From: Halolamina pelagica
GTDB taxonomy: Archaea > Halobacteriota > Halobacteria > Halobacteriales > Haloferacaceae
Reading direction: 5' to 3'
Assembly: GCF_001307315.1 (NCBI RefSeq)
Contig: NZ_LGUC01000001.1
Coordinates: 2,418,001-2,482,000 of the forward strand
Length of the DNA: 64,000 bases
Position numbers and translations under genes: made by a program
Shown: positions 31,558 to 59,105 of the stretch, one piece after another
Numbering within the stretch: position 1 is the stretch's first letter
Layout: each line of letters begins with the position of its first letter
Notes under the pieces: model-generated
What the model saw: the letters and a program-made list of their open reading frames with translations, nothing else
What the model was told of the DNA's origin: nothing
Database searches by the model: none

Positions 31558-33418
31558 ATGTTCGATAAGGTGCTCGTCGCGAACCGCGGCGAAATCGCGG
31601 TGCGAGTCATGCGCGCCTGCGAGGAACTGGGCGTCGACACAGTCGCCGTCTACTCCGAGGCGGACAAACACGGCGGTCACGTGCGCTACGCCGACGAGGC
31701 GTACAACGTCGGCCCCGCCCGCGCGGCCGACTCCTACCTCGACCACGAGGCGGTCATCGAGGCCGCCGAGAAAGCCGGCGCCGACGCGATCCACCCCGGC
31801 TACGGCTTCCTCGCGGAGAACGCCGAGTTCGCGGGCAAGGTCGAAGCCCACGACGAGATCACGTGGGTCGGCCCGGCCGCGGACGCGATGGAGCAGCTCG
31901 GCGAGAAGACCAAGGCCCGGAAGACGATGCGCGAGGCGGACGTGCCGATCGTCCCCGGGACGACCGACCCCGCCGAGAGCGCCGAGGAAGTGAAGGCGTT
32001 CGGCGAGGAGTACGGCTACCCCATCGCGATCAAGGCCGAGGGCGGCGGCGGCGGCCGCGGGATGAAGATCGTCGAAGGGCCGGAGGAGGCCGAAGACCAG
32101 CTCGAGAGCGCGAAACGCGAGGGCGAGGCGTACTTCGACAACGCCAACGTCTACCTCGAGCGCTACCTCGAGAACCCCGGCACATCGAGGTGCAGATCCT
32201 CGCCGACGAGCACGGCAACGTCCGCCACCTCGGCGAGCGTGACTGCTCGCTCCAGCGCCGCCACCAGAAGGTGATCGAGGAAGGCCCGAGCCCCGCACTC
32301 ACCGACGAGCTCCGCGAGGAGATCGGCGCGGCCGCCCGCCGCGGCGCCGACGCCGCCGGCTACTACAACGCCGGCACCTTCGAGTTCCTCGTCGAGGAGG
32401 AGGACCGCGACGCCGAGAGCGGCGAACTGCTCGGCCCCGACGCGAACTTCTACTTCCTCGAGGTCAACACCCGGATTCAGGTCGAACACACCGTCACCGA
32501 GGAGCTCACCGGCATCGACATCGTGAAGTGGCAGCTCCGGGTCGCCGCCGGCGAGGAGCTCACGTTCGAGCAGGAGGACGTGGATCTCTCGGGCCACGCG
32601 ATGGAGTTCCGGATCAACGCCGAGCACGCCGACGAGGAGTTCCAGCCCGCAAGCGGCGGGACGCTCACCACCTACGACCCGCCGGGCGGTATCGGCGTCC
32701 GCCTCGACGACGCGCTCTCGGAGGGCGACGAGCTGGTGACCGACTACGACTCGATGATCGCGAAGCTGATCGTCCACGCGGGTGACCGCGAGGAGTGTAT
32801 CGCCCGGTCGCAGCGAGCGTTCGCGGAGTACGACATCGAGGGCGTCGTCACCATCTCCCCGTTCCACCGCCTGATGCTCGAGGACGACGCGTTCGTCGCC
32901 GGAACGCACACGACGAAGTATCTCGACGAGGAGCTCGACCCCACCCGGATCGACGACGCCGTCGAGACGTGGGGCACCGAGGAGACGAGCGGCGACGCCG
33001 AGGACGGCGAGACCACCGAGCGGCAGTTCACCGTCGAAGTCAACGGCAAGCGCTTCGAGGTGAACCTCGAGGAGGAGGGCGCCCCGCGATCCCGACGCCC
33101 CAGACGAGCAGCGGCGGCCAGGATCGACCCCCACAAGCCGGCAGCAGCGGCGGCAGCAGCGACGACGGCGGGTCCGGCGGCGACGCCCCCGAGGTGCCGG
33201 AGGGCGGCGAGTCCGTCGCCGTCGACATGCAGGGGACCGTCCTGTCGGTCGAGGTCGAGGAGGGCGACGAGGTCGCGCCGGGCGACACCGTCGCGGTGCT
33301 GGAGGCGATGAAGATGGAGAACGACATCGACGCCGAGCGCGGCGGCACCGTCTCGCAGGTGCTCGTCTCCGAGGGCGAGAGCGTCGATATGGGCGACGTG
33401 CTGGTCGTATTGGAGTAA
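31558..33418 (+). CDS. Acyl-CoA carboxylase alpha subunit: biotin carboxylase + biotin carrier (two frameshifts)
   Basis: About 620 residues after repair. Biotin carboxylase N-domain [23 protein letters not shown]-grasp [18 protein letters not shown], and catalytic region [17 protein letters not shown] Gly/Ser linker leads to the biotinyl domain with the biotinylated Lys in [10 protein letters not shown]. It supplies carboxybiotin for acetyl/propionyl-CoA carboxylation (PccA/AccC type). One-base deficits in C runs 32175-32178 and 33082-33085 break the frame; adding one C to each restores [10 protein letters not shown] and [10 protein letters not shown]. The carboxyltransferase gene is not adjacent. 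Confidence 0.93.
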
Positions 33419-34170: not shown

Positions 34171-34554
34171 TCAGGCCCCGCCAGTCCGCTCGTCCAGTTC
34201 CGCGAGGTACCGCTCCCGGGGCTCCTGGTACGCGCCGCGGTAGTCGATCTCGCCGGCCGCGAACCGTTCGGCCACGTCGACGGCGGCGGCGACGGCGGCG
34301 TCGCGGCTCTCGCGCGTCTCGTTCGTCAGTTCGATCTCGGGTTCGGCGAACAGCGTGGCGTGCCACTCCTCGGTCGCGTACTGGCCGGCGCCGGGGCGGT
34401 TGGCCCGCGACCCGTTCGTGACGTAGATCGTCGGGAGACACGCCGCGGGGAACTCGTCGGCGTCGAACACGTCCGGCCGGTACGCGAGGATGATCCGCCC
34501 GTCGCGCTGTTCGGTCCAGACGGTCCACGACTCCGGGAGGTCCTCCAGGCCCAT
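34171..34554 (-). CDS. DUF5820 family protein
   Basis: 127-residue soluble protein. LPESWTVWTEQRDGRIILAY, then FPAACLPTIYVTNG and the C-terminal GEIDYRGAYQEPRERYL match what I recall of the haloarchaeal DUF5820 family. Function unknown. The ATG at 34554 (MGLEDLPESW) is chosen over the longer frame starting at 34602. It is divergent from the photolyase gene, with starts only about 90 bp apart. Confidence 0.82.
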   Translation of the reverse strand: MGLEDLPESWTVWTEQRDGRIILAYRPDVFDADEFPAACLPTIYVTNGSRANRPGAGQYATEEWHATLFAEPEIELTNETRESRDAAVAAAVDVAERFAAGEIDYRGAYQEPRERYLAELDERTGGA

Positions 34555-34645
34555 GCCCGACTGTCGGGGCGCAGGGTGGATATGCCTCTCGCTCTCCGGC
34601 ACCCGCTACCCGAACTGCAAAGCGGCGACCGCCCCGAGAGCCGGC

Positions 34646-36121
34646 ATGGAGACAGCGATCTGGTGGGTGCGCGAGGACGCCCGCCTGCACGACAACGCCG
34701 CGCTCGTCGCCGCGGCCGAGGCCGACGCACTCCTCCCGGTGGTCGTCGTCGACCCCCGGCAGTACGGGACCCAGCCCTACGGCGGTCCGCAGTCGTTCAC
34801 CTTCGAGAAGACCGGCGCCTACCGCGCGCAGTTCCAGCGGGAGACGGTCGCGGATCTTCGGCAGTCGCTCGACGAACGGGGCTCGGGGCTCCTCGTCCGC
34901 GAGGGCCGTCCGGGCGAGGTGGTGCCCGAAATCGCCACGGCGGTCGACGCCGACACGGTCCACTTCCAGGCGCTCCCGGCGCCGGAGGAACGGGACGCCG
35001 CGGCCGCGGTCGTGAGCGCGCTCGCCGACGCGGGGGTGCAGACGGCGAGTCACTGGACGACCACACTCCACCACGTCGCCGACCTTCCCGACGGCGTTGA
35101 CGGCATCGACGACACGTTCACGCCGTTCCGACAGTCAGTCGAACAGGAGAGCCGCGTCCGGGAGCCGCTCCCCGAACCGGCGCTCCCGCCCACGCCCGCG
35201 CTCGACCGACTCGACGGGGGTTACGGCTCGCTCCCGACGCTCGCGGAGCTCGGGCTCGAACCGCCCGCGTACGACGACCGCGGCGTGCTCGCGTTCGAGG
35301 GCGGCGAGACTGCGGCGCTCGACCGAGTTCAGGAGTACGTCTGGGAGGGCGACCACCTCCGGGCGTACAAACAGACCAGAAACGGCCTGCTCGGGCCGAA
35401 CTACTCCTCCAAGTTCTCGCCGTGGCTCGCAGCCGGCTGCCTCTCCCCGCGGTACGTGAAGCGGGAGGTGGACCGGTACGAGGCCGAGCGCGTCTCGAAC
35501 GACTCGACGTACTGGCTCGTGTTCGAGCTCCGCTGGCGGGACTTCATGGCGTTCCAGACCGCCAAACACGGCGCGACGTTCTTCACCCGGGGCGGGATCA
35601 GGGAGCGCGAGGACGTCGACTGGGCCGACCCCGGAAGTGATCCGACAGCCCGCGAGCAGTTCGAGCGCTGGACGGCCGGCGAGACCGGGATCCCGTTCGT
35701 CGACGCCACCATGCGCGAACTGAACGAGACGGGCTACATGAGCAACCGCGGCCGGCAGAACGCCGCCTCCTTCCTCGCGAACAGCCTCCGGATCGACTGG
35801 CGCCGCGGCGCGGCGTACTTCGAAACGAAGCTGGTCGACTACGACGCCGGCTCGAACTACGGGAACTGGGCGTACGTCGCCGGCGTCGGCAACGACAGCC
35901 GGAACAGCTACTTCGACATCGTCGAACAGGCCCGAAACTACGACGGCGACGGCGAGTACGTCCGCCACTGGCTCCCCGAACTCCAGGGGCTGCCGCCCGG
36001 CTACGTCCACGAGCCGTGGGAGATGGACCGCGGGGAGCAGCGCGCCTACGGCGTGGTGCTCGGCGAGGACTACCCCGAGCCGATGGTCGATCTCGCGGCG
36101 AGCTACGAGGAGTTCCGCTAG
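34646..36121 (+). CDS. Cryptochrome DASH / photolyase family protein
   Basis: 491-residue flavoprotein with an N-terminal antenna-binding alpha/beta domain (AIWWVREDARLHDNAAL) and a C-terminal FAD domain. The signatures FELRWRDFMAFQ, GYMSNRGRQNAASFLA and GNDSRNSYFDIVEQ point to the CRY-DASH clade, which repairs cyclobutane pyrimidine dimers chiefly in single-stranded DNA using light. The start at 34646 (METAIWWV) is preferred over the long upstream extension. Single gene, divergent from the DUF5820 gene. Confidence 0.93.
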   Translation: METAIWWVREDARLHDNAALVAAAEADALLPVVVVDPRQYGTQPYGGPQSFTFEKTGAYRAQFQRETVADLRQSLDERGSGLLVREGRPGEVVPEIATAVDADTVHFQALPAPEERDAAAAVVSALADAGVQTASHWTTTLHHVADLPDGVDGIDDTFTPFRQSVEQESRVREPLPEPALPPTPALDRLDGGYGSLPTLAELGLEPPAYDDRGVLAFEGGETAALDRVQEYVWEGDHLRAYKQTRNGLLGPNYSSKFSPWLAAGCLSPRYVKREVDRYEAERVSNDSTYWLVFELRWRDFMAFQTAKHGATFFTRGGIREREDVDWADPGSDPTAREQFERWTAGETGIPFVDATMRELNETGYMSNRGRQNAASFLANSLRIDWRRGAAYFETKLVDYDAGSNYGNWAYVAGVGNDSRNSYFDIVEQARNYDGDGEYVRHWLPELQGLPPGYVHEPWEMDRGEQRAYGVVLGEDYPEPMVDLAASYEEFR

Positions 36122-36464: not shown

Positions 36465-38441
36465 CTACTTGCCTTCGAACTCCGGCTCCTCGTCACCCAT
36501 GAACGCGGTGACGCCCTCCATCAGGTCGTCGGTGTTCATCAGGTGGCCGAACGCCTGGCTCTCGACTTCGAGACCGGCGTCGGTGTCGTCGCGCCCCGCG
36601 AGCATCGCGCGCTTGGTGTAGCGCTGCGCGATCGGCGGACCGGCCGCGAGGTCGCGGGCCAGCTCCCAGCCGCGGTCGAGCAGCTCCTCGCCGTCGGTGA
36701 CCTCGTTGATGAAGCCGTACTCCGCGAGCTCCTCGGCGTCGTAGCGCTCGGCGGTGAAGATGATCTCCTTCGCCCGCCCCTCGCCGACGATGTGGCGCAG
36801 GCGCTGGGTGCCGCCCCACCCCGGCAGGAGGCCGAGGTTGTGTTCCGGCTGGCCGAGCTCGCTCCGGCGGCTGGCGATCCGGAGGTCCGCGCCGGTCGCG
36901 AGCTCCATCCCGCCGCCGAGGCAGTAGCCGTCGATGGCGGCGACGACCGGCGCGTCGAGCGACTCCAGCTTGCCGAACGTCTCCTGGCCGAGCTTCGAGA
37001 GTTCGACCGCGTGCAGCGGGTCGCCGCCGCCGGCGGCCATCGACTGCACGTCGGCGCCGGCGGAGAACGCGCGGTCGCCCTCGCCCGTGAGCAGCACCGC
37101 GCGCACGTCCCCGTGGGCGTCGAGCTCGTCGATGGCGGTGTCGAGCTCGTGGAGCAGCTCCTCGCTGATCGTGTTCATCCGGTGGGGGCGGGCGAGTTCG
37201 ATGTGCCCCACGTGGCCGTCGACGGCGACGTTCAGGGACTCGTACTCCGTCCCGTCGTCACCGTTCTCGGCGCTCCCGTAGAACCCCTCGCCGGCGTCGG
37301 CGAGCTCACGCAGCGTTTCCTCGGCCTCGTAGCGCTCCTCGCCGGTCGCCTCGTGGAGGTCGTCCAGCGTCTCGACCAGCGCGTCGAGCCCGTACTCGTC
37401 GGCCATCTTCGCGGGGCCGTCGGGCCAGCCGCCGCCGAGCTTGACCGCCTCGTCGATGGCGTCGGGGTCGGCGACGTCGCCGCCGACGAGCCCGGCGACC
37501 TCGTTGGCCAGCAGGGCGAGCAGGCGCTCCTGGATACCCTCGCTGACCGCGTCCGTCGGGATCTGGGCGCCGTCGCCGTCCTCGTAGTCGTAGAAGCCCC
37601 GGCCGGTTTTCTTCCCCAGCTCCTCGGCCTCGACTTTCTCGGCCAGCAGCGGGCAGGGTCGGTACGCGTCGCCGAGCTCCTGGTGCATGTACTCGAGCAC
37701 GTGGTAGCCCACGTCGATGCCGACCTGGTCGGCGAGCTCGAACGAGCCCATCGGCAGCCCGATACCGTACTTCGTGGTGGAGTCGACCGCCTCGATGGTG
37801 GCGTCGCCGGACTCGACCAGCCACGCGGCCTCGTTCATCAGCGGCACGAGCACGCGGTTGACGATGAAGCCGGGCGAGTCCTTCCGGACCCGAACGGGGG
37901 TCTTGCCCATCGACTCCGCCAGTTCCTCGATCGTGTCGAGGGTGTCGTCGGCGGTGTCGGCGCCGGAGATGACCTCGACCAGCTGCATCCGCACCGGCGG
38001 GTTGAAGAAATGCATCCCGCAGAACTGCTCGGGGCGGTCGCTGACCTCCGCCAGGTCCGTGATCGAGAGGCTCGAGGTGTTCGTCGCGAAGATCGCCTCC
38101 GGCGGCGCGTACTCGACGACCTCGCGGTACACCTCCTTCTTGATGTCCATCTTCTCGGGGACGGCCTCGATCACTACGTCGGCGTCGCCGACGGCCGCCT
38201 CGAGTTCGACGACCGGCGTCACGCGATCGAGCGCGCCGTCGGCCTCGTCCCGACTGATCTGGTCTTTCTCGGCCAGTTTGTCGAGGCTCCACTCGATCTG
38301 TTCGTAGCCGTTCTGGACGAACTCCTCGTTGATGTCCCGCATCGTCACGTGGTAGCCCGCCAGCGCGGCGACCTCGGCGATACCGTGGCCCATGTTGCCT
38401 GCGCCGAGCACCGCGATCCGTTCGATTTCGTCGGGATCCAT
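36465..38441 (-). CDS. 3-hydroxyacyl-CoA dehydrogenase / enoyl-CoA hydratase fusion
   Basis: 658-residue bifunctional beta-oxidation protein. The N-terminal dehydrogenase has the Rossmann motif IAVLGAGNMGHGIAEVA, then IFATNTSSLSITDLAEV, HFFNPPVRMQLVEVI and the C-domain GYHVLEYMHQELGD. The C-terminal crotonase domain (about 400-658) has SAGADVQSM (oxyanion hole) and ELGQPEHNLGLLPGWGGTQR. The order, dehydrogenase first, is the archaeal arrangement and the reverse of bacterial FadB. It hydrates enoyl-CoA and oxidises 3-hydroxyacyl-CoA. It may work with acyl-CoA dehydrogenases such as the one at 7300. Confidence 0.95.
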   Translation of the reverse strand: MDPDEIERIAVLGAGNMGHGIAEVAALAGYHVTMRDINEEFVQNGYEQIEWSLDKLAEKDQISRDEADGALDRVTPVVELEAAVGDADVVIEAVPEKMDIKKEVYREVVEYAPPEAIFATNTSSLSITDLAEVSDRPEQFCGMHFFNPPVRMQLVEVISGADTADDTLDTIEELAESMGKTPVRVRKDSPGFIVNRVLVPLMNEAAWLVESGDATIEAVDSTTKYGIGLPMGSFELADQVGIDVGYHVLEYMHQELGDAYRPCPLLAEKVEAEELGKKTGRGFYDYEDGDGAQIPTDAVSEGIQERLLALLANEVAGLVGGDVADPDAIDEAVKLGGGWPDGPAKMADEYGLDALVETLDDLHEATGEERYEAEETLRELADAGEGFYGSAENGDDGTEYESLNVAVDGHVGHIELARPHRMNTISEELLHELDTAIDELDAHGDVRAVLLTGEGDRAFSAGADVQSMAAGGGDPLHAVELSKLGQETFGKLESLDAPVVAAIDGYCLGGGMELATGADLRIASRRSELGQPEHNLGLLPGWGGTQRLRHIVGEGRAKEIIFTAERYDAEELAEYGFINEVTDGEELLDRGWELARDLAAGPPIAQRYTKRAMLAGRDDTDAGLEVESQAFGHLMNTDDLMEGVTAFMGDEEPEFEGK

Positions 38442-38567
38442 GCGCGATTGGTCGGCCGGACGGCGGTTGAACGTTTCCCTCTCCCGTGTCAGGAACGGGC
38501 TCGGAGTTGCTCCGCGTGGTCACCGCGGCCGATACCTCTTACCACCCGAGGACGGACGTACGAACGG

Positions 38568-39047
38568 ATGGAGATCGAGGCGCCGACGATGGACGACGCC
38601 GACAGGCTGGCGGAGCTGTGGGTAGATCTCGCGCGCAGCCAGCGCGCACACGGCTCACACCTGCTGGCCGAGCCCAACCGCGAGACGGTGCGGGAGGGGT
38701 TGGCTCGCGCGATCGTCACCCAGAACGTGCTGGTCGCCCGGACCGACGACGACCTCGCGGGGTTCGTCGAGTTCGCGCCCGAGACCGACAGCTACCGCCA
38801 GGACGTCGCGCGTGGCGTGATCGAGAACATCTACGTGCGGCCGTCCCACCGGGACACCGGACTCGGCGCCGACCTGCTCGCGGCCGCCGAAGCCCGCCTG
38901 CTCGACGCCGGCATCGATCGCGTCACGCTGGAGGTGCTCGCGGACAACGAGGCGGCCCGGCGCTTCTACGCGCGCCAGGGCTACGAACCCCACCGCGTGG
39001 AGTTGGAGAAGGCGCCCGAAAGCGACACGCACTCAAAGGAGGACTGA
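38568..39047 (+). CDS. GNAT family N-acetyltransferase
   Basis: 159-residue acetyltransferase. The acetyl-CoA motif is ENIYVRPSHRDTGLGADLLA, followed by the typical C-terminal VTLEVLADNEAARRFYARQGYE. The N-terminal helix (TMDDADRLAELWVDLARSQR) forms the substrate side. The substrate is unknown. The start at ATG 38568 follows a haloarchaeal-type promoter. It ends only 14 bp before tRNA-Thr, so read-through is likely. Confidence 0.9.
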   Translation: MEIEAPTMDDADRLAELWVDLARSQRAHGSHLLAEPNRETVREGLARAIVTQNVLVARTDDDLAGFVEFAPETDSYRQDVARGVIENIYVRPSHRDTGLGADLLAAAEARLLDAGIDRVTLEVLADNEAARRFYARQGYEPHRVELEKAPESDTHSKED

Positions 39048-40627: not shown

Positions 40628-41161
<534 letters not shown>

Positions 41162-41230
41162 CCTCCTGTGCCGGCCTGGTTCTCTCGTCGCGGGACGGGG
41201 AACTATGTCGGATCCACACTGAGTAGCACT

Positions 41231-43197
41231 GTGTTCAGAGCCGCGGCTGTCGCGTTCGTCCTCTTGCTCGTCGGCGCGCAGCCGGCGGTGGCTGTCGCCG
41301 GCGCGCCGGCCGTCGACGGCCCCGTCGCCGACGCCAGCGCCGCCGACACCGCGTCGGCGACGCTCGCGATCGACACCGCCCTCTCGTTGACCCCCGAGCA
41401 GCCGGGTTCGGTCGGCGTCGTCCAGACGTTCGACACGCCCGAGGCGCTGACCGAACTCCGGGTCACGCTCGACGCCCGGTCGACGGTGACGGCGGCCGAG
41501 GGGTTCAGCAAGGCCGGGGGCGACACCTGGGAGTGGGACGGTGAGACCGCCGAGCCGCGGCTCCGCTACGACCTGGCAGTCAACCGAACGACCGACCGCG
41601 AGGGGCCGATGGCGGGGAGCGGGTCGTACCTCTACGCCGACGTGGGCGAGTGGGCGCTGATCCAGCAGCCGAACACCGGGCTCGAGTGGCGCACCACCGC
41701 CTCGATCAACCTCGACCGGACGACTCGCGTCGACGGCGCGGGCGCCGTCGGCAGCGCCACCGCCTTCCTCGGCCCCCACGAGGAGTACACGCGCGAGGTC
41801 GCGGGGCAGGAGATCCGGCTGATCGTCCCCGCGGCCGCCGATCTCGCGGACCCCCCGAAGCGATCCTCGACGGCCTCGGGAACGCCTCCCGCGAACTCAA
41901 CGTCGGCGACCGGGACGCGATGGTGTTCGCCGTCGCGGCGCCGACCGACAAGGTCGGCTGGGCGGTACAGGGGGTCCAGGTCGGCGACACCGACTTCTGG
42001 GCCCGGGCGAACCGACCGATCGACAGCGCCGGGAGCACGTGGCTCCACGAGTACGTCCACACCCGGCAGTCGTTCCAAACCACCGAGAGCGGGCAGTGGA
42101 TCACCGAGGCCACCGCGACGTGGTACGCCGCGCTGCTGAGTCACCAGCAGGAGGGCGTCGGCTTCCCGGGCCTCTCGGAGTATCTGGAGCGCGGCACTCG
42201 GAGCCCGCAGGCGGAGTCAGTGCTCGCCGAGCCGAGCGACTGGGCGAACAACGCCCACTACTGGAAGGGGGCGCTGGTCAGCGGCGAGCTCGACCGGCGG
42301 CTCAGGCTGGCGACCGACGGCGGCGCCACGCTCCAGCGCGTGCTCGCGGCGCTGAACGACCACGGCAGCGTCAGCAACGAGGACATCCTCGCGGCCGTGG
42401 CCGAGGCGGGCACGGCGGCCGAACGCGACGCCGCCGAGCGACTGACCACCACCAGCGACGCGCCGGCCGTGTGGGACAGCGAGGCCCACCGCGACGCGTT
42501 CGGCGGCGACGCGGCGCTTCTGCGCGTCGGCTTCGACCCGGCGACGGACCTGCGGGCAACCGGCCCGTACCGCAACGCGACGACCGCCGCACCCGTCACG
42601 CTCGCAGCCGGCGAGCGGCTCTCGGTCCGCACCGCCGTCGAGAACCTCGGCGGCGCGACCGGCGAGTACACCGTCACACTCCGGGTCGGCGACGCCGTCG
42701 TCGCGACCACGAACGGGACGCTCGCCCCGGACGGCCGGACGAACGCGTCGCTCGCCCACCGGTTCGCGGAGCCGGGGCGGTACACCGTCTCGATCGCCGG
42801 CGAGCGCTTCACCGTCAGGGTTCGCCAGCCGGCGACCCCGAGCGTGACCGACCTCAGCGTCGAGCCAACGACGGTGGCACGTGGCGACGAGGTGACGGTG
42901 ACCGCAACGGTGACCAACGACGACTCGGTGCCCGGCAACACGACGGTCGCGTTCACCCGCGGCGGCGAGACGGTGGCGACCCGGACCGTCGCAGTCGGGC
43001 CGAACGATCGCGAGACGGTCAGCGCGACGGTCGAGCTGACCGAGCCCGGACAGCAGCGCGTCGGCGCCAACGGGGAGTCCCTCGCGGTGTCGGTCGAGTC
43101 GACCAGTCGAACGAGCGTCCCCGGCTTCGGCGTGCCGGCCGCCGTCGGCGCGATCGCCGGTGTGCTCGCCGTGGGACGGCTGCGCTCGGGTCGGTAG
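41231..43197 (+). CDS. Secreted HExxH metallopeptidase-like protein with PGF-CTERM anchor (frameshifted)
   Basis: About 655 residues after repair. The Sec-type signal FRAAAVAFVLLLVGAQPAVA is followed by a beta-rich N-domain, then WLHEYVHTRQSF and WITEATATWYAAL, the Zn-ligand HExxH plus a downstream Glu of gluzincin peptidases. A CARDB-like beta-sandwich domain (VTDLSVEPTTVARGDEVTVT) precedes the terminal VPGFGVPAAVGAIAGVLAVG and a basic end, the PGF-CTERM signal processed by archaeosortase. A one-base deficit in the C run 41851-41856 splits DLADPPEAILDG. GTG 41231 is my preferred start; 41168 is possible. Probably a surface protease; substrates unknown. Confidence 0.78.
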
Positions 43198-50546: not shown

Positions 50547-51796
50547 ATGGACATCCGGACGTTCACCGAACGGCTCATCGAGTCCCGGACCGTCGACGGC
50601 GGGGAGGCCGATGCCGCGGCGTGGGCCCGGGAGCAACTCGACGCGCTCGGGTTCGAAACGTACGAGTGGCTCGCCGACGCCGAGGCGCTGGCGAATCACT
50701 CCTCGTTCCCGGACGACCCGGACCTGATCGACACGGCCGACCGACCGAGCGTGGCGGGCGTACTGGAGTTCGGCGATCCCGACGCCGGCCCGACGCTCGT
50801 CCTGAACGGCCACCTCGACGTGGTGCCGGCCGACGAGGACGCGTGGTCGTCGGACCCGTTCAAGCCCGTCTGGGGCGAGACCGACGACGGCGCGGAGACG
50901 CTCACCGCCCGCGGCGCCGTCGACATGAAGGCGCCCGTCGCCGCCTGCGTGTTCGCGGCGCTGGACGCCGCCGAGCGCGCGGACTCGGCCGACCTGAACG
51001 GCCGACTCGTCGTCGAAGCCGTCGCCGGCGAGGAGGAGGGCGGCATCGGCGCCGCCGCGGCCGCGCTGTCGAACCCCTACCCCTTCGACCGCGACGCCGC
51101 GATCGTCGCCGAGCCGACCGAGCTGACCCCCGTCACGGCCGTCGAGGGAACCGTGATGAAGCGCCTGGAGATCCAGGGCCGGGCAGCCCACGCCGCCTCG
51201 CGCTGGCGCGGCGAGGACGTGCTCCCCCACTTCGAGCGCATCCGCGCGGCGTTCAAAGCGCTCGAAGCCGAGCGCGGGGAGACGGTCACGCACCCGCTGT
51301 ACGAGGAGTACCCCGTCCCGTGGCCGATCGTGATCGGGATCGTCGAGGCCGGTAACTGGGCCTCCTCGGTGCCGAGTTCGCTCACGGCCGAGATGCGCTT
51401 CGGCGTCGCCCCGGGCGAGACCGTCGACGAGGTGGAAGCGCAGTACGAGGCGGCGCTGCAGACCGTCGTCGACGGCGACGACTGGCTCTCGTCGCACCCC
51501 CCAGTTTCGAGCGGTTCAGCATCCAGTTCGAGCCCGCCGAAACCGACGCCGACGAGCCGATCGTGCGGACGCTCCAGGCGGCGATGAAAGCGACGAGCGT
51601 TCCCGACACCGAGCCCCGGGGCGCGACCTACGGCGCCGACTCCCGACACTACGTCGCCGCCGGGATTCCGACGGTGCTGTTCGGCCCCGGAAGCATCGAG
51701 CAGGCCCACTTCCCCGACGAGACGATCGAGTGGGCCGACGTGGAGCAGGCCAGAGAAACGATCGCCGAGACCGCCGTCCGCTTCCTTCAGTCGTAG
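50547..51796 (+). CDS. M20 family metallopeptidase / deacylase (ArgE/DapE-like) (frameshifted)
   Basis: About 416 residues after repair. Zn-ligand motifs are LVLNGHLDVVPADED (His-x-Asp) and ARGAVDMKAPVAA, then AGEEEGGIGAAAAAL (Glu-Glu) and a final DSRHYVAAGIPTVLFGPG with the last His. A small dimerisation domain begins EIQGRAAHAAS-like. A one-base deficit in the C run 51497-51502 breaks the frame between WLSSHPP and SFERFSIQFEP. Family members remove acyl groups from amino acids (acetylornithine, succinyl-diaminopimelate). The substrate is not certain. Confidence 0.87.
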
Positions 51797-55947: not shown

Positions 55948-56331
55948 TCAGGCGAGCGACGTGCTCGGGTCGTCGACTTCGACGAGGTGTTCCTCGCCCC
56001 ACTCGTGCATGGCGTCGATGACCGACTCGAGCGAGGCGCCGTGGTCGGTCAGCGAGTACTCGGTTCTGACTGGCTTCTCGTTCACGATCTCGCGGTCGAT
56101 CAGCTGCTTGCTCTCCAGATCGTCGAGCACGTCCGAGAGCACCTTACTGGAGATGCCGTCGACGCGTGCCTCGAGTTCGCTGAAGCCACAGGCGCCCTGC
56201 GCGAGCAGTCGATCGATCACCACCGGATGCCACTTCTTCCCCACGAGCATCGCCGTCGTCGTCACCGGACACCACTCCTCGCCCGCACACCACACCGGCA
56301 GTTTCTCCGGATCGTCTGGCTGACTAGTCAT
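55948..56331 (-). CDS. HxlR family transcriptional regulator
   Basis: 127-residue winged-HTH regulator: TAMLVGKKWHPVVIDRLLAQ, FSELEARVDGISSKVLSDVL (recognition helix) and RTEYSLTDHGASLESVIDAM. An N-terminal WCAGEEWCPV gives two Cys near the HTH, fitting thiol- or oxidant-sensing as in HypR/YodB-type HxlR proteins. It ends next to the CoA-disulfide-reductase-like gene, so a redox-response role is plausible. Own promoter upstream is AT-rich around 56345-56390. Confidence 0.9.
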   Translation of the reverse strand: MTSQPDDPEKLPVWCAGEEWCPVTTTAMLVGKKWHPVVIDRLLAQGACGFSELEARVDGISSKVLSDVLDDLESKQLIDREIVNEKPVRTEYSLTDHGASLESVIDAMHEWGEEHLVEVDDPSTSLA

Positions 56332-56640: not shown

Positions 56641-56716
56641 GTCGGCACAGCCCTCCGAAGGCGAACACGTTCGGGCGGCCGGACTAGGTCGTTTGGCCCG
56701 AACCTCGGGTAGAGCC

Positions 56717-57022
56717 ATGTCCCAACACGATCACGAGACCCCGGACCCCGTCACCGACCACGTTCACGACAACTCCTGGTCGGCGAACCTCGAAGGGCCC
56801 GAGCACGCCGCTGACCGCGAGCTGCTCGTCGAGCAGGGGATCGAGGCGGTCGCACACACCACCGCCGGAAACCACGTCAACCTCGTGACCCACGGCGAGC
56901 ACGGCCACCCCGAGACGTTCCTCTACGACGCGCTCGACCGCGAGTTCGGCGACGACGTGGACTGGGAGTACGTCGAACAGTGCGGCTGTGGCGGGCACGT
57001 CGTGCGCGTCCACGTGAACTGA
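56717..57022 (+). CDS. CGCGG-type candidate radical-SAM-modified RiPP precursor
   Basis: 101-residue protein. The N-terminus is His/Asp-rich (HDHETPDPVTDHVHDNSWSA), the middle holds AGNHVNLVTHGEHGHPETFL, and the C-terminus carries EYVEQCGCGGHVVRVHVN with the diagnostic C-G-C-G-G. Only two cysteines are present, both there. I recall this as the haloarchaeal CGCGG family of putative rSAM-modified peptides. Such families are named for co-occurrence with radical SAM/SPASM genes, but none lies in this window. A 100-aa protein of unknown function follows 25 bp downstream. Confidence 0.75.
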   Translation: MSQHDHETPDPVTDHVHDNSWSANLEGPEHAADRELLVEQGIEAVAHTTAGNHVNLVTHGEHGHPETFLYDALDREFGDDVDWEYVEQCGCGGHVVRVHVN

Positions 57023-57047
57023 CTGCCCACCCGACGATCGCTCCGCT

Positions 57048-57350
57048 ATGCCACCACACGGCCTACCTCGGCGGGGGGCGGGCCCCGAGCTGGTCGAGGA
57101 GTCGGCGTCGGCGATCCACGACGTGGCGGAACGGGAGTTCGCGGCGCTCACCGGCGTCGCGGCGACGGCCGTCGACGCTGCCCGGCTCCGACGGTGGATG
57201 CCCGCCTACGACGGGACGTGGGACGCGCTCGACGCCGTGGATCTCCCGGCCGGCGTCGATCTGTGTGCGAACTACGCGGCCCGGGCCGGGATCCCCGGGC
57301 GGCTCCGGTCGGCCGAGCGGCTGGCGACCCGGATCGCCGGCGGGGGCTGA
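57048..57350 (+). CDS. Hypothetical protein, 100 aa, downstream of the CGCGG precursor
   Basis: 100-residue soluble protein: GPELVEESASAIHDVAEREF, then RRWMPAYDGTWDALDAVDLP and the C-terminal AARAGIPGRLRSAERLATRI. One Cys (DLCANYAARAG). Coding bias is good, no family recognised. It starts 25 bp after the CGCGG gene, so the two share a transcript. A role as a modification partner or immunity factor is speculative. Confidence 0.6.
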   Translation: MPPHGLPRRGAGPELVEESASAIHDVAEREFAALTGVAATAVDAARLRRWMPAYDGTWDALDAVDLPAGVDLCANYAARAGIPGRLRSAERLATRIAGGG

Positions 57351-57406: not shown

Positions 57407-57832
57407 ATGAACTCGGTCAGTGTCTCGCGTGAGGTGGCGGCGCCGCCCGAGGCGGTACGGGCGCGGATGAACGACGTGGGGGCGTTCATGCGCGCCGCGG
57501 GGTTCGACGAAGTGACCACCGACGGCGACCGGATCACGATCACCAACGGCGTCGGCATCGCCACGGTCGAACTCGAACTCGAACTGATCGACCACCCGGA
57601 CGCGGCGCTGGCGTACCGCCAGCGCGACGGGATCTTCGAGGAGATGGTGACGCGGTACACGCTCGAACCGACCGACGACGGCACCGAGGTGACCGCCGAG
57701 ACCGAGTTCGCCGTCGACGTGGCGCTGGTCGGCAAACTGCTCGACGCGACCGTGATCAAGCGCCAGCGCCGCCGGGAGTTGGACCAGCAGTTCGACTGGC
57801 TGGAACGGGAGTTTGCCGGTCAGACTGAGTAG
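57407..57832 (+). CDS. SRPBCC (START-like) domain protein
   Basis: 141-residue single-domain protein. It begins MNSVSVSREVAAPPEAVRAR, typical of polyketide-cyclase/Bet-v-1-like SRPBCC proteins, with MVTRYTLEPTDDGTEVTAET as the central strands and DATVIKRQRRRELDQQFDWL as the long C-terminal helix. It should bind a hydrophobic ligand. Function unknown. ATG 57407 chosen. Its 3' end overlaps the convergent beta-CASP gene by 13 bp. Confidence 0.85.
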   Translation: MNSVSVSREVAAPPEAVRARMNDVGAFMRAAGFDEVTTDGDRITITNGVGIATVELELELIDHPDAALAYRQRDGIFEEMVTRYTLEPTDDGTEVTAETEFAVDVALVGKLLDATVIKRQRRRELDQQFDWLEREFAGQTE

Positions 57833-59105
57833 GTCGCGCCCAGTTCGGGCGCCGACGCGTCGTAGCCGTTCGTGCGGAGTTCCGCCGCGAACTCGCCACA
57901 GCGGTCGCCGTGGTTGACGAGGATCTCGGCGTCGTCGTACGCATCGAGAAACTGCCGCAGGCCGTCGTGGTCGGCGTGCGCGGAGAAGTCGTACCCCTCG
58001 ACCTGCGCGCTGACGGGCATCACGCGGCCGTCGATCTCGGCGCGGCCGGTTTCCAGCAGGTCGCGGCCGGGGTCCCCTCGACCTGGTACCCGGTCAGCGT
58101 CACCTTGTTCACGGGGTTCGCCCGGATCTCCGGGATGTACGTCATCGCCGGGCCGCCCGAGAGCATCCCGCTCGTGGTGACGATCGCCGCGGGCTGGTCG
58201 GCGATCCGTTTTCGCTGGCCGTCGCGACCCGTCACGAACCGGGCGTGTGATTTTGCGCGCCGCAGCGCGTCGGCGTCGCGGACGAACTCGGGGTGGCGCC
58301 GCAGCATCTCGGTCACCTCCTTCCCCATCCCGTCGACGTAGCAGGGGATGTCGTGGGCCGCACAGACGAGCAGCAGCTCCTGCGTGCGGCCGATGGCGAA
58401 CGCGGGGACGACGACGGTGCCGCCCTCCCACAGCGTCGTCTTGGCGCTCCGTGCGAACCGGTGTTCGACGCTCGCCCGCGGCTCGTGATCCACGTCCGAG
58501 TACGTGCTCTCGCAGAGCACCACGTCGGCGTCCGGGCGCGCGGTCGACCCCGCGACGAGGCGCTGGCCGGCCGGCGGGTCGCCGGCGTCGAACCCCGCGG
58601 GCGGGTCGGCGGCGGACTGCTCGTCGACGTGGAAGTCGCCGGTGTAGAGGAGGCGGGTGTCCCCATCGTCGACGAGCACGTGCGCGCTGCCGGGGATGTG
58701 GCCGGCGTTGTAGAACGTCACCTCGTAGCCGGCGGCCGTGAACGTCTCGCGGTAGCCGTGGGTCTCGGACACCTCAGTGACCCGCTTCACGTCGGTCTCG
58801 GTGAACGGGCAGTGCGGCGAGTGGCCGTGGAGTTTGAGCGTGTCGCGCGCGAGCGTCAGCGCGAGCTCGCGGGTCGGCGGCGTCCAGTGGATCGGCGGCC
58901 GGTTCGACCCCGAGAGCAGCGACGGGATCGCCCCCACGTGGTCGAGGTGGCCGTGGGAGACGACGACGGCGTCGGGCGCCGGCGTCGCCACGGGGTACTG
59001 CGGCGGCTCGGCGGTCAGCAGCCCGAAGTCGAGCAGCAGCGAGTCGTCGACGAGGACGGCGCTGCGGCCGACCTCGCCCGCGCCGCCGAGGAACCGAAGC
59101 TCCAT
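57820..59105 (-). CDS. Metallo-beta-lactamase / beta-CASP ribonuclease, archaeal CPSF-like (frameshifted)
   Basis: About 428 residues after repair. MBL motif SHGHLDHVGAIPSLL (H-x-H-x-D-H), AGHIPGSAHVLVDDG and LLYTGDFHVDEQ are metal ligands. The beta-CASP insert has VVVPAFAIGRTQELLLVC and TTSGMLSGGPAMTYIPE, and the end has YDFSAHADHDGLRQFL and VNHGD. No N-terminal KH domains, so it resembles aCPSF2 rather than aCPSF1. A one-base deficit in the G run 58069-58072 (C run on the coding strand) breaks VEGTPGRDLLETGR. It probably trims or cleaves RNA 3' ends. Confidence 0.9.

Follow-up and report, generated by a model that had tools for sequence, protein, structure and literature searches.

A CGCGG-family protein of Halolamina pelagica as a probable folded accessory of the denitrifying state, orphaned by a putative deletion

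A 64,000-nucleotide stretch of Halolamina pelagica DNA (here called the window) contains a short gene with a CGCGG motif near its 3' end and, 25 bp downstream, an open reading frame (ORF) of 100 codons that runs from an ATG at 57048 to 57350. The original prediction, made from the sequence alone, took these to be an orphan CGCGG-type RiPP precursor and an unassigned partner, and supposed that the modifying radical SAM (rSAM) enzyme is encoded elsewhere, unless the function is not RiPP-like. The locus thus poses three questions: what the CGCGG protein is, where its enzyme is, and what the second frame encodes. The features discussed below are collected in Table 1.

Table 1. Features of the CGCGG locus, in window coordinates
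Feature	Position	Strand	Remark
HxlR-type regulator, left flank	55948..56331	-	Syntenic in 4/5 sister loci
NarO-type palindrome CGAACACGTTCG (CGAA-N4-TTCG)	56662..56673	+	Starts 55 bp upstream of ATG
CGCGG-family protein, 101 aa (TIGR03995, target_X_rSAM)	56717..57022	+	Profile match, intact frame
CGCGG motif, residues 89-93	56981..56995	+	Intact in 67/68 distinct homologues; predicted hairpin turn
Putative rSAM gene start remnant, ATGCCACCAC	57048..57057	+	ATGCCACCACGCGACATC in H. pelagica and H. rubra
CCAC, 4-bp microhomology at putative deletion junction	57054..57057		rSAM side ends ATGCCACCAC; oxidase side begins CCACAC (57054)
Protoporphyrinogen-oxidase-like FAD gene, putative C-terminal remnant (about 90 codons)	57054..57350	+	Read as 100-aa ORF
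SRPBCC (Polyketide_cyc2) gene, right flank	57407..57832	+	Next intact gene; syntenic in 5/5 sister loci

The frame of the CGCGG gene opens with ATG at 56717 and closes with a stop at 57020-57022. As had been described, the 101-aa product carries the motif at residues 89 to 93, and C89 and C91 are its only cysteines. It matched the TIGR03995 profile over positions 1 to 83 of 83 (E = 7.1e-42; 141.7 bits against a cut-off of 70). This match supplies the name of the family that the prediction had described as rSAM modified; its NCBIfam label is "CGCGG family putative rSAM-modified RiPP protein." Across five sister Halolamina loci the protein is 84 to 95% identical, and this identity, together with the profile match over the cut-off, indicates at the sequence level that the 101-aa frame is a real gene. 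Its closest named relatives, among the best 80 of 183 confirmed relatives, are from H. pelagica (95%) and H. rubra (87%), and dN/dS against H. pelagica was about 0.12. In a sample of the phylum, the family was found in 9 of 13 Halobacteria and in 0 of 77 other genomes, in keeping with the haloarchaeal distribution that had been claimed. Literature searches yielded no paper with TIGR03995 or TIGR04053 and, among the matches listed for "CGCGG," no title on the family; the term is absent from the available part of PMC12144867.

Alignment of 68 distinct proteins revealed conservation along the whole length. The invariant positions (window numbering) are H17, S20, W21, S22, N24, E26, A44, T48, H53, V54, V57, H59, P65, L69, V95, and R97. 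Constancy of the core among homologues had been proposed as a check on the prediction, and the core proved near-invariant: it is intact in 67 of the 68 proteins, and the one homologue that deviates is an extra copy. The motif had also been called C terminal. It does lie near the C terminus but is not terminal, as it is followed by eight residues (HVVRVHVN) that make up the greater part of a predicted beta strand. An AlphaFold2 prediction from 66 sequences gave a mean pLDDT of 91.7 and a pTM of 0.83, with only residues 1 to 5 below 50. The predicted elements run E21-25, H28-32, H34-46, E53-58, H70-80, E81-88, and E94-100, and CGCGG sits between the last two strands, at the turn of a C-terminal beta hairpin. 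The protein is thus predicted to be a compact fold that includes the core, with no architecture of unstructured leader plus core. Conservation along the whole length and the predicted fold argue against a leader-plus-core peptide. The precursors of PQQ and mycofactocin, which are of the cofactor type, are likewise conserved, so conservation alone does not rule out a RiPP. When the model was compared with the PDB by Foldseek, no match at E ≤ 0.001 was among those listed; the weak matches were mostly to methyltransferases (best E 0.023, TM 0.52). A profile search of PDB sequences with the family gave nothing up to an E value of 1.

The original prediction proposed a search for rSAM/SPASM genes that co-occur with the family across Halobacteria. 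Such a gene was found. In 391 Halobacteria, TIGR03995 was over its cut-off in 257 genomes, and the rSAM family TIGR04053 was over its own in 267. A strong TIGR04053 match was present in 228 of the 257 CGCGG genomes and lacking in 29, so the complete absence of a co-occurring rSAM gene, named in advance as evidence against the prediction, was not what we observed. Among the 134 genomes without CGCGG, TIGR04053 was present in 42 and absent in 92 (Fisher odds ratio of 17 and P = 4e-31, uncorrected for kinship; counts were transcribed by hand, and presence was taken as E ≤ 1e-84, which 270 genomes reach). The two genes are linked without either depending on the other, as the 29 CGCGG-only and 42 TIGR04053-only genomes indicate. 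The SPASM model TIGR04085 had no match in 20 of the 29 CGCGG-only genomes and a match in 9; this model sees the SPASM region of TIGR04053 itself at just 25.9 bits against a cut-off of 27 (E = 1e-5), and weak SPASM domains could be missed. The main CGCGG copy was intact in all 12 of these 29 genomes from which loci were fetched, that of the window included. One of the 29 (G238, with locus L092 and others) has six CGCGG matches, one of them a copy without the first Cys-Gly. The nitrite reductase gene nirK was over its cut-off in 12 of the 29 CGCGG-only genomes, compared with 4 of 51 genomes with neither gene (P = 0.0008, uncorrected for kinship); all 29 were used, and the 51 were drawn from the 92 lacking both genes, thinned by hand and with four that have weak CGCGG matches omitted. 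Since the other 17 lack nirK over the cut-off, nirK does not account for every genome that has CGCGG without TIGR04053.

The rSAM protein of the sister loci scored 497 bits against TIGR04053, 333 against AhbD, 219 against NirJ2, 171 against the haloarchaeal pseudo-SAM protein, and 168 against NirJ; the mycofactocin and PqqE maturase profiles gave 135.7 and 127.5 bits. The best full-length solved relative of TIGR04053 was PqqE (6c8v; E = 2.5e-20). In five Haloferax loci (H. marisrubri, H. massiliensis, H. gibbonsii, H. denitrificans, and Haloferax sp. strain Q22), the gene order is nirK, DUF2249, TIGR04053, halocyanin, qNor, CGCGG, halocyanins, and an HTH-10 regulator, with names assigned from query proteins that pass the TIGR02376 (nirK), DUF2249, NorB/COX1, copper-binding, and HTH_10 models. 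In Haloferax volcanii the corresponding genes are given as nirK (HVO_2141), ahbD (HVO_2144), those for the blue copper proteins (HVO_2145 and HVO_2150), and norB (HVO_2147) (PMC5746218). The best match to the AhbD profile was the TIGR04053 locus in all five Haloferax-group genomes (330 to 340 bits; the next match reached 218 to 227), and no match in these five genomes passed the AhbD cut-off. Synteny and best profile hit together identify the TIGR04053 gene as the probable counterpart of H. volcanii ahbD (HVO_2144), the gene for the anaerobic heme synthase. Deletion of ahbD in H. volcanii strongly reduced anaerobic growth but not aerobic growth, and added heme restored growth to a similar level under DMSO respiration and in part under denitrification (PMC5746218). 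ahbD is reported from two-thirds of haloarchaea (PMC8305020), beside 267 of 391 genomes here with TIGR04053 over its cut-off. No protein that partners AhbD is mentioned in the available part of PMC10452713. The likeness has limits: AhbD (TIGR04545) is the second-best profile of the sister enzyme, whose 333 bits fall below the cut-off of 500, and AhbC was over its cut-off in none of the seven Halolamina genomes. The role of the TIGR04053 protein in Halolamina may for these reasons differ from that of AhbD. Although AhbC is thus missing over its cut-off, five of the seven genomes have the AhbD-like TIGR04053 gene beside a protoporphyrinogen-oxidase-like gene, a hint that Halolamina makes heme by a route other than the siroheme one. 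A pseudo-rSAM protein of the TIGR04347 type is encoded about 2.4 kb downstream of CGCGG in locus L105 (710 bits), and others are close to CGCGG in L102, L137, L140, L152, L163, and L175.

The sequence upstream of the CGCGG gene points to the denitrification regulon. Denitrification genes and ahbD are described as likely to be regulated through CGAA-N4-TTCG (PMC5746218), and a longer, closely similar motif, CGAAYATDKTYG, is given in PMC11218638. In Haloferax mediterranei, denitrification induces most of the genes in the nirK-nor region, and these carry repeats of the motif (PMC11218638); in the available main text of that article the terms CGCGG, RiPP, and radical SAM do not occur. The palindrome matches once in the 64-kb window, and since about 1.5 matches are expected by chance, the copy in the window is not significant alone. 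The family as a whole tells more. The palindrome was found at most 200 bp upstream in 53 of 80 CGCGG genes, where 0.044 per 200 bp would be expected, and in 49 of the 53 it lies at 49 to 55 bp; the exact palindrome is absent from the other 27. These counts cover the window and 79 further loci (L128 was dropped for want of an anchor), with start codons set by script. In the five Haloferax loci the CGCGG gene lies inside the nirK-nor cluster described in PMC5746218 and PMC11218638 and has the same palindrome upstream. The window differs, with no nirK or nor seen near CGCGG and the nirK of its genome at C1:1164214.

Neighbors were surveyed within about 10 kb in the best 80 of 183 confirmed relatives, a sample short of distant loci, with several that share a genus or genome. 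HTH-10 regulators were found at 40 of the 80 loci. DUF2249 genes were found at 36, 28, and 18 with three query types, which detect in part the same genes. Halocyanins were found at 26 loci, qNor at 17, nirK at 14, and the oxidase at 3. TIGR04053 (at least 50% identity) was found at 32 of these 80 loci, and in 19 it is directly downstream of CGCGG on the same strand. A protein of about 170 to 200 aa (FDDYDDFVPEHIPVPGAFL...), for which Pfam gave no match, lies beside CGCGG/DUF2249 in 28 of the 80 (e.g., L082 5340-5921), and 18 (e.g., L082 7404-8780) have beside CGCGG a gene for a membrane protein of about 460 aa that weakly matches COX1, a heme-copper oxidase.

From these data, we infer that the CGCGG protein is probably not the precursor of a secreted modified peptide but a folded accessory used by haloarchaea in the anaerobic (denitrifying) state that is likely to be under NarO control and to bind a metal or heme. 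Binding would most likely involve the CGCGG hairpin and the invariant H17, H53, and H59. In most haloarchaea with the family, the protein would act alongside TIGR04053, the probable counterpart of H. volcanii ahbD, whose product converts coproheme to heme b anaerobically; in the window genome it would have been orphaned by a deletion. Some results speak against the accessory reading: the strong co-occurrence and the direct adjacency at 19 of the best 80 loci are what a maturase and its substrate would display, 17 of the 29 CGCGG-only genomes lack nirK over the cut-off, 27 of 80 genes lack the exact palindrome, and no fold match in the PDB reached an E value of 0.001. If the accessory reading is right, the RiPP annotation carried by 257 of 391 haloarchaeal genomes points to the wrong biology. 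The supposed maturase would then be encoded by the gene that has an anaerobic-heme phenotype, and the denitrification genes are where the small protein would belong. The link to denitrification is testable in H. volcanii, for which an ahbD deletion strain exists (PMC5746218).

The prediction of a RiPP precursor survives in part. The full-length family match, the motif, and the haloarchaeal distribution agree with TIGR03995, whose name and co-occurring rSAM enzyme support that reading; the window genome differs from the family in having no detected TIGR04053. A true precursor of the cofactor type would have its CGCGG crosslinked or oxidized by TIGR04053, yielding a conserved redox cofactor or a modified protein of anaerobic respiration, and the window would hold a dead precursor. 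PqqA/PqqE and MftA/MftC, which yield peptide-derived cofactors, likewise place a small conserved protein beside a SPASM rSAM enzyme, and the co-occurrence, the adjacency, the scores against the mycofactocin and PqqE maturases, and the PqqE structure as best solved relative all fit such a pair. In contrast to those precursors, the CGCGG protein has about 100 aa, is predicted to be folded with its core included, and persists without the enzyme in 29 genomes (20 of them with no SPASM match, and one with six CGCGG matches), while 42 genomes have TIGR04053 with no CGCGG over the cut-off. The closest other profile of the enzyme is AhbD, its Haloferax orthologue by synteny has a heme phenotype (PMC5746218), and the CGCGG gene bears marks of the denitrification regulon. 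The balance makes a RiPP precursor doubtful, and we consider the cofactor type possible but unlikely.

A bolder form of the accessory reading would make the CGCGG protein a carrier or chaperone dedicated to the anaerobic heme pathway. The CGCGG hairpin and the invariant histidines would hold coproheme or heme, which would be offered to the AhbD-type rSAM enzyme, or the protein would hand the product on to nitric oxide reductase. The family, now classed with precursors of peptide natural products, would then serve in heme or metal trafficking in denitrification. We offer this as speculation and think it rather unlikely to hold in this specific form.

The sister genomes suggest how the window came to lack the enzyme. 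Five of the six other Halolamina genomes have the order CGCGG, TIGR04053 rSAM, oxidase, SRPBCC, and a gene resembling metallo-beta-lactamase; G191, the sixth, lacks both CGCGG and the TIGR04053 enzyme. The locus in the window has the same flanks as in the sisters, and homology to the two closest sisters stops at 57023 and restarts at 57050. The missing stretch measures 2,047 bp relative to G042 and G074, 3,380 bp relative to H. rubra, and 3,537 bp relative to H. pelagica; the last two carry an extra gene on the opposite strand there. In the proposed course of events, a deletion of 2.0 to 3.5 kb, joined at CCAC, would have removed nearly all of the rSAM gene and roughly the first four-fifths of the oxidase gene, leaving the CGCGG protein orphaned and the 100-aa ORF as a scar. 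The absence of a modifying rSAM partner from the locus, as predicted, extends to the whole assembly, which is rated 79.9% complete: none of its eight PF04055 (radical SAM) matches is of the TIGR04053 type, the SPASM model TIGR04085 has no match, and no cognate rSAM maturase was found. By eye, we take the eight to be MoaA, a MiaB-type protein, LipA, CofG, Elp3, a B12-domain protein, CofH, and the archaeosine enzyme. With the sister rSAM enzyme as the query, the best match in the 2.97-Mb assembly was one of 31% at the MoaA-like locus.

The missing genes could instead be a fault of the assembly, the strain having a complete cassette and the junction arising from an error-prone assembly. Six of 19 window genes have changed frames relative to G042 (32062-33415, 34360-36118, 36468-38830, 41064-43191, 50547-51790, and 57823-59105), compared with 1 of 47 comparisons among the six sister loci; the 19 were compared over 36 kb of one sister genome, and two pairs of the six sister loci are the same contigs. 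The nirK gene of the window genome is also split over two frames (G000:C1:1164214-1165130), and the assembly is incomplete. It looks indel-prone, and ORF-based gene calls in the window look unreliable. Against a fault of this kind, two genes meet at the junction in a clean microhomology join, the search of the 2.97 Mb gave no copy of the enzyme elsewhere, and small indels and a loss of 2 to 3.5 kb are different kinds of error. We regard an assembly fault as fairly improbable and infer that the deletion is probably real, short of proof, since a clean microhomology join of this length is unlike small indels.

In another rival reading, the CGCGG protein might be a divergent member of DUF2249, an accessory or sensor of denitrification clusters, whose last hairpin has turned into CGCGG. 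DUF2249 genes are frequent neighbors in the surveyed loci, the predicted order is beta-alpha-beta-alpha-beta-beta, and weak Pfam matches were obtained for 4 of 66 members (best E 0.06). Profile-profile comparison by hhalign was not significant (10 columns, E 0.1), the window protein scored 12.9 bits against the PF10006 gathering score of 29.5, other, unrelated Pfam families match more of the 66 members, and no SirA/TusA-like entry was among the 50 Foldseek matches listed. The homology, first suggested by eye and a Pfam E value of 0.1, thus found no support from hhalign or the 66-member scan, and we keep it as a rival of low probability.

The 100-aa ORF, which is present where it had been reported, is not the unassigned partner that it was taken for. 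Its ATG and the next seven bases (ATGCCACCAC) correspond to the start of the rSAM gene in H. pelagica and H. rubra (ATGCCACCACGCGAC). The oxidase takes over at 57054 (CCACAC), entered at HTAYLGGG, about 90 codons before the end of that gene, and the two sides overlap by CCAC. Five sister loci encode an oxidase of 419 to 425 aa, to whose C-terminal end the ORF is 58 to 81% identical; the 419-aa G042 copy passes the protoporphyrinogen oxidase model TIGR00562 (148 bits against 97.85). The ORF matches NF008841 over positions 365 to 448 of 453 alone (E = 4.9e-4, far below the cut-off), with the FAD-binding N terminus and the full length absent. The synteny of the sisters and the CCAC junction therefore indicate that the ORF is no gene in its own right but a deletion scar, the C-terminal end of the oxidase fused to the first codons of the deleted rSAM gene. 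The remnant is one base short relative to the sisters, just after HTAYLGGGR, and this loss happens to join the oxidase tail in frame to the rSAM ATG; because the assembly looks indel-prone, we attach no interpretation to it. That the ORF functions as a partner and is translated together with the CGCGG protein, as its open frame of 100 codons so close downstream might suggest, is given practically no credence, because it takes its start codon from another gene, is a base short, lacks the FAD-binding part, and has as its homologue in five sister loci the last part of the oxidase. The locus thus displays a scar that could be mistaken for a new partner gene. The extra gene between rSAM and oxidase in H. 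pelagica (L072 7098-8726) and H. rubra (L074), which lies on the opposite strand, encodes by reading a multi-pass membrane protein.
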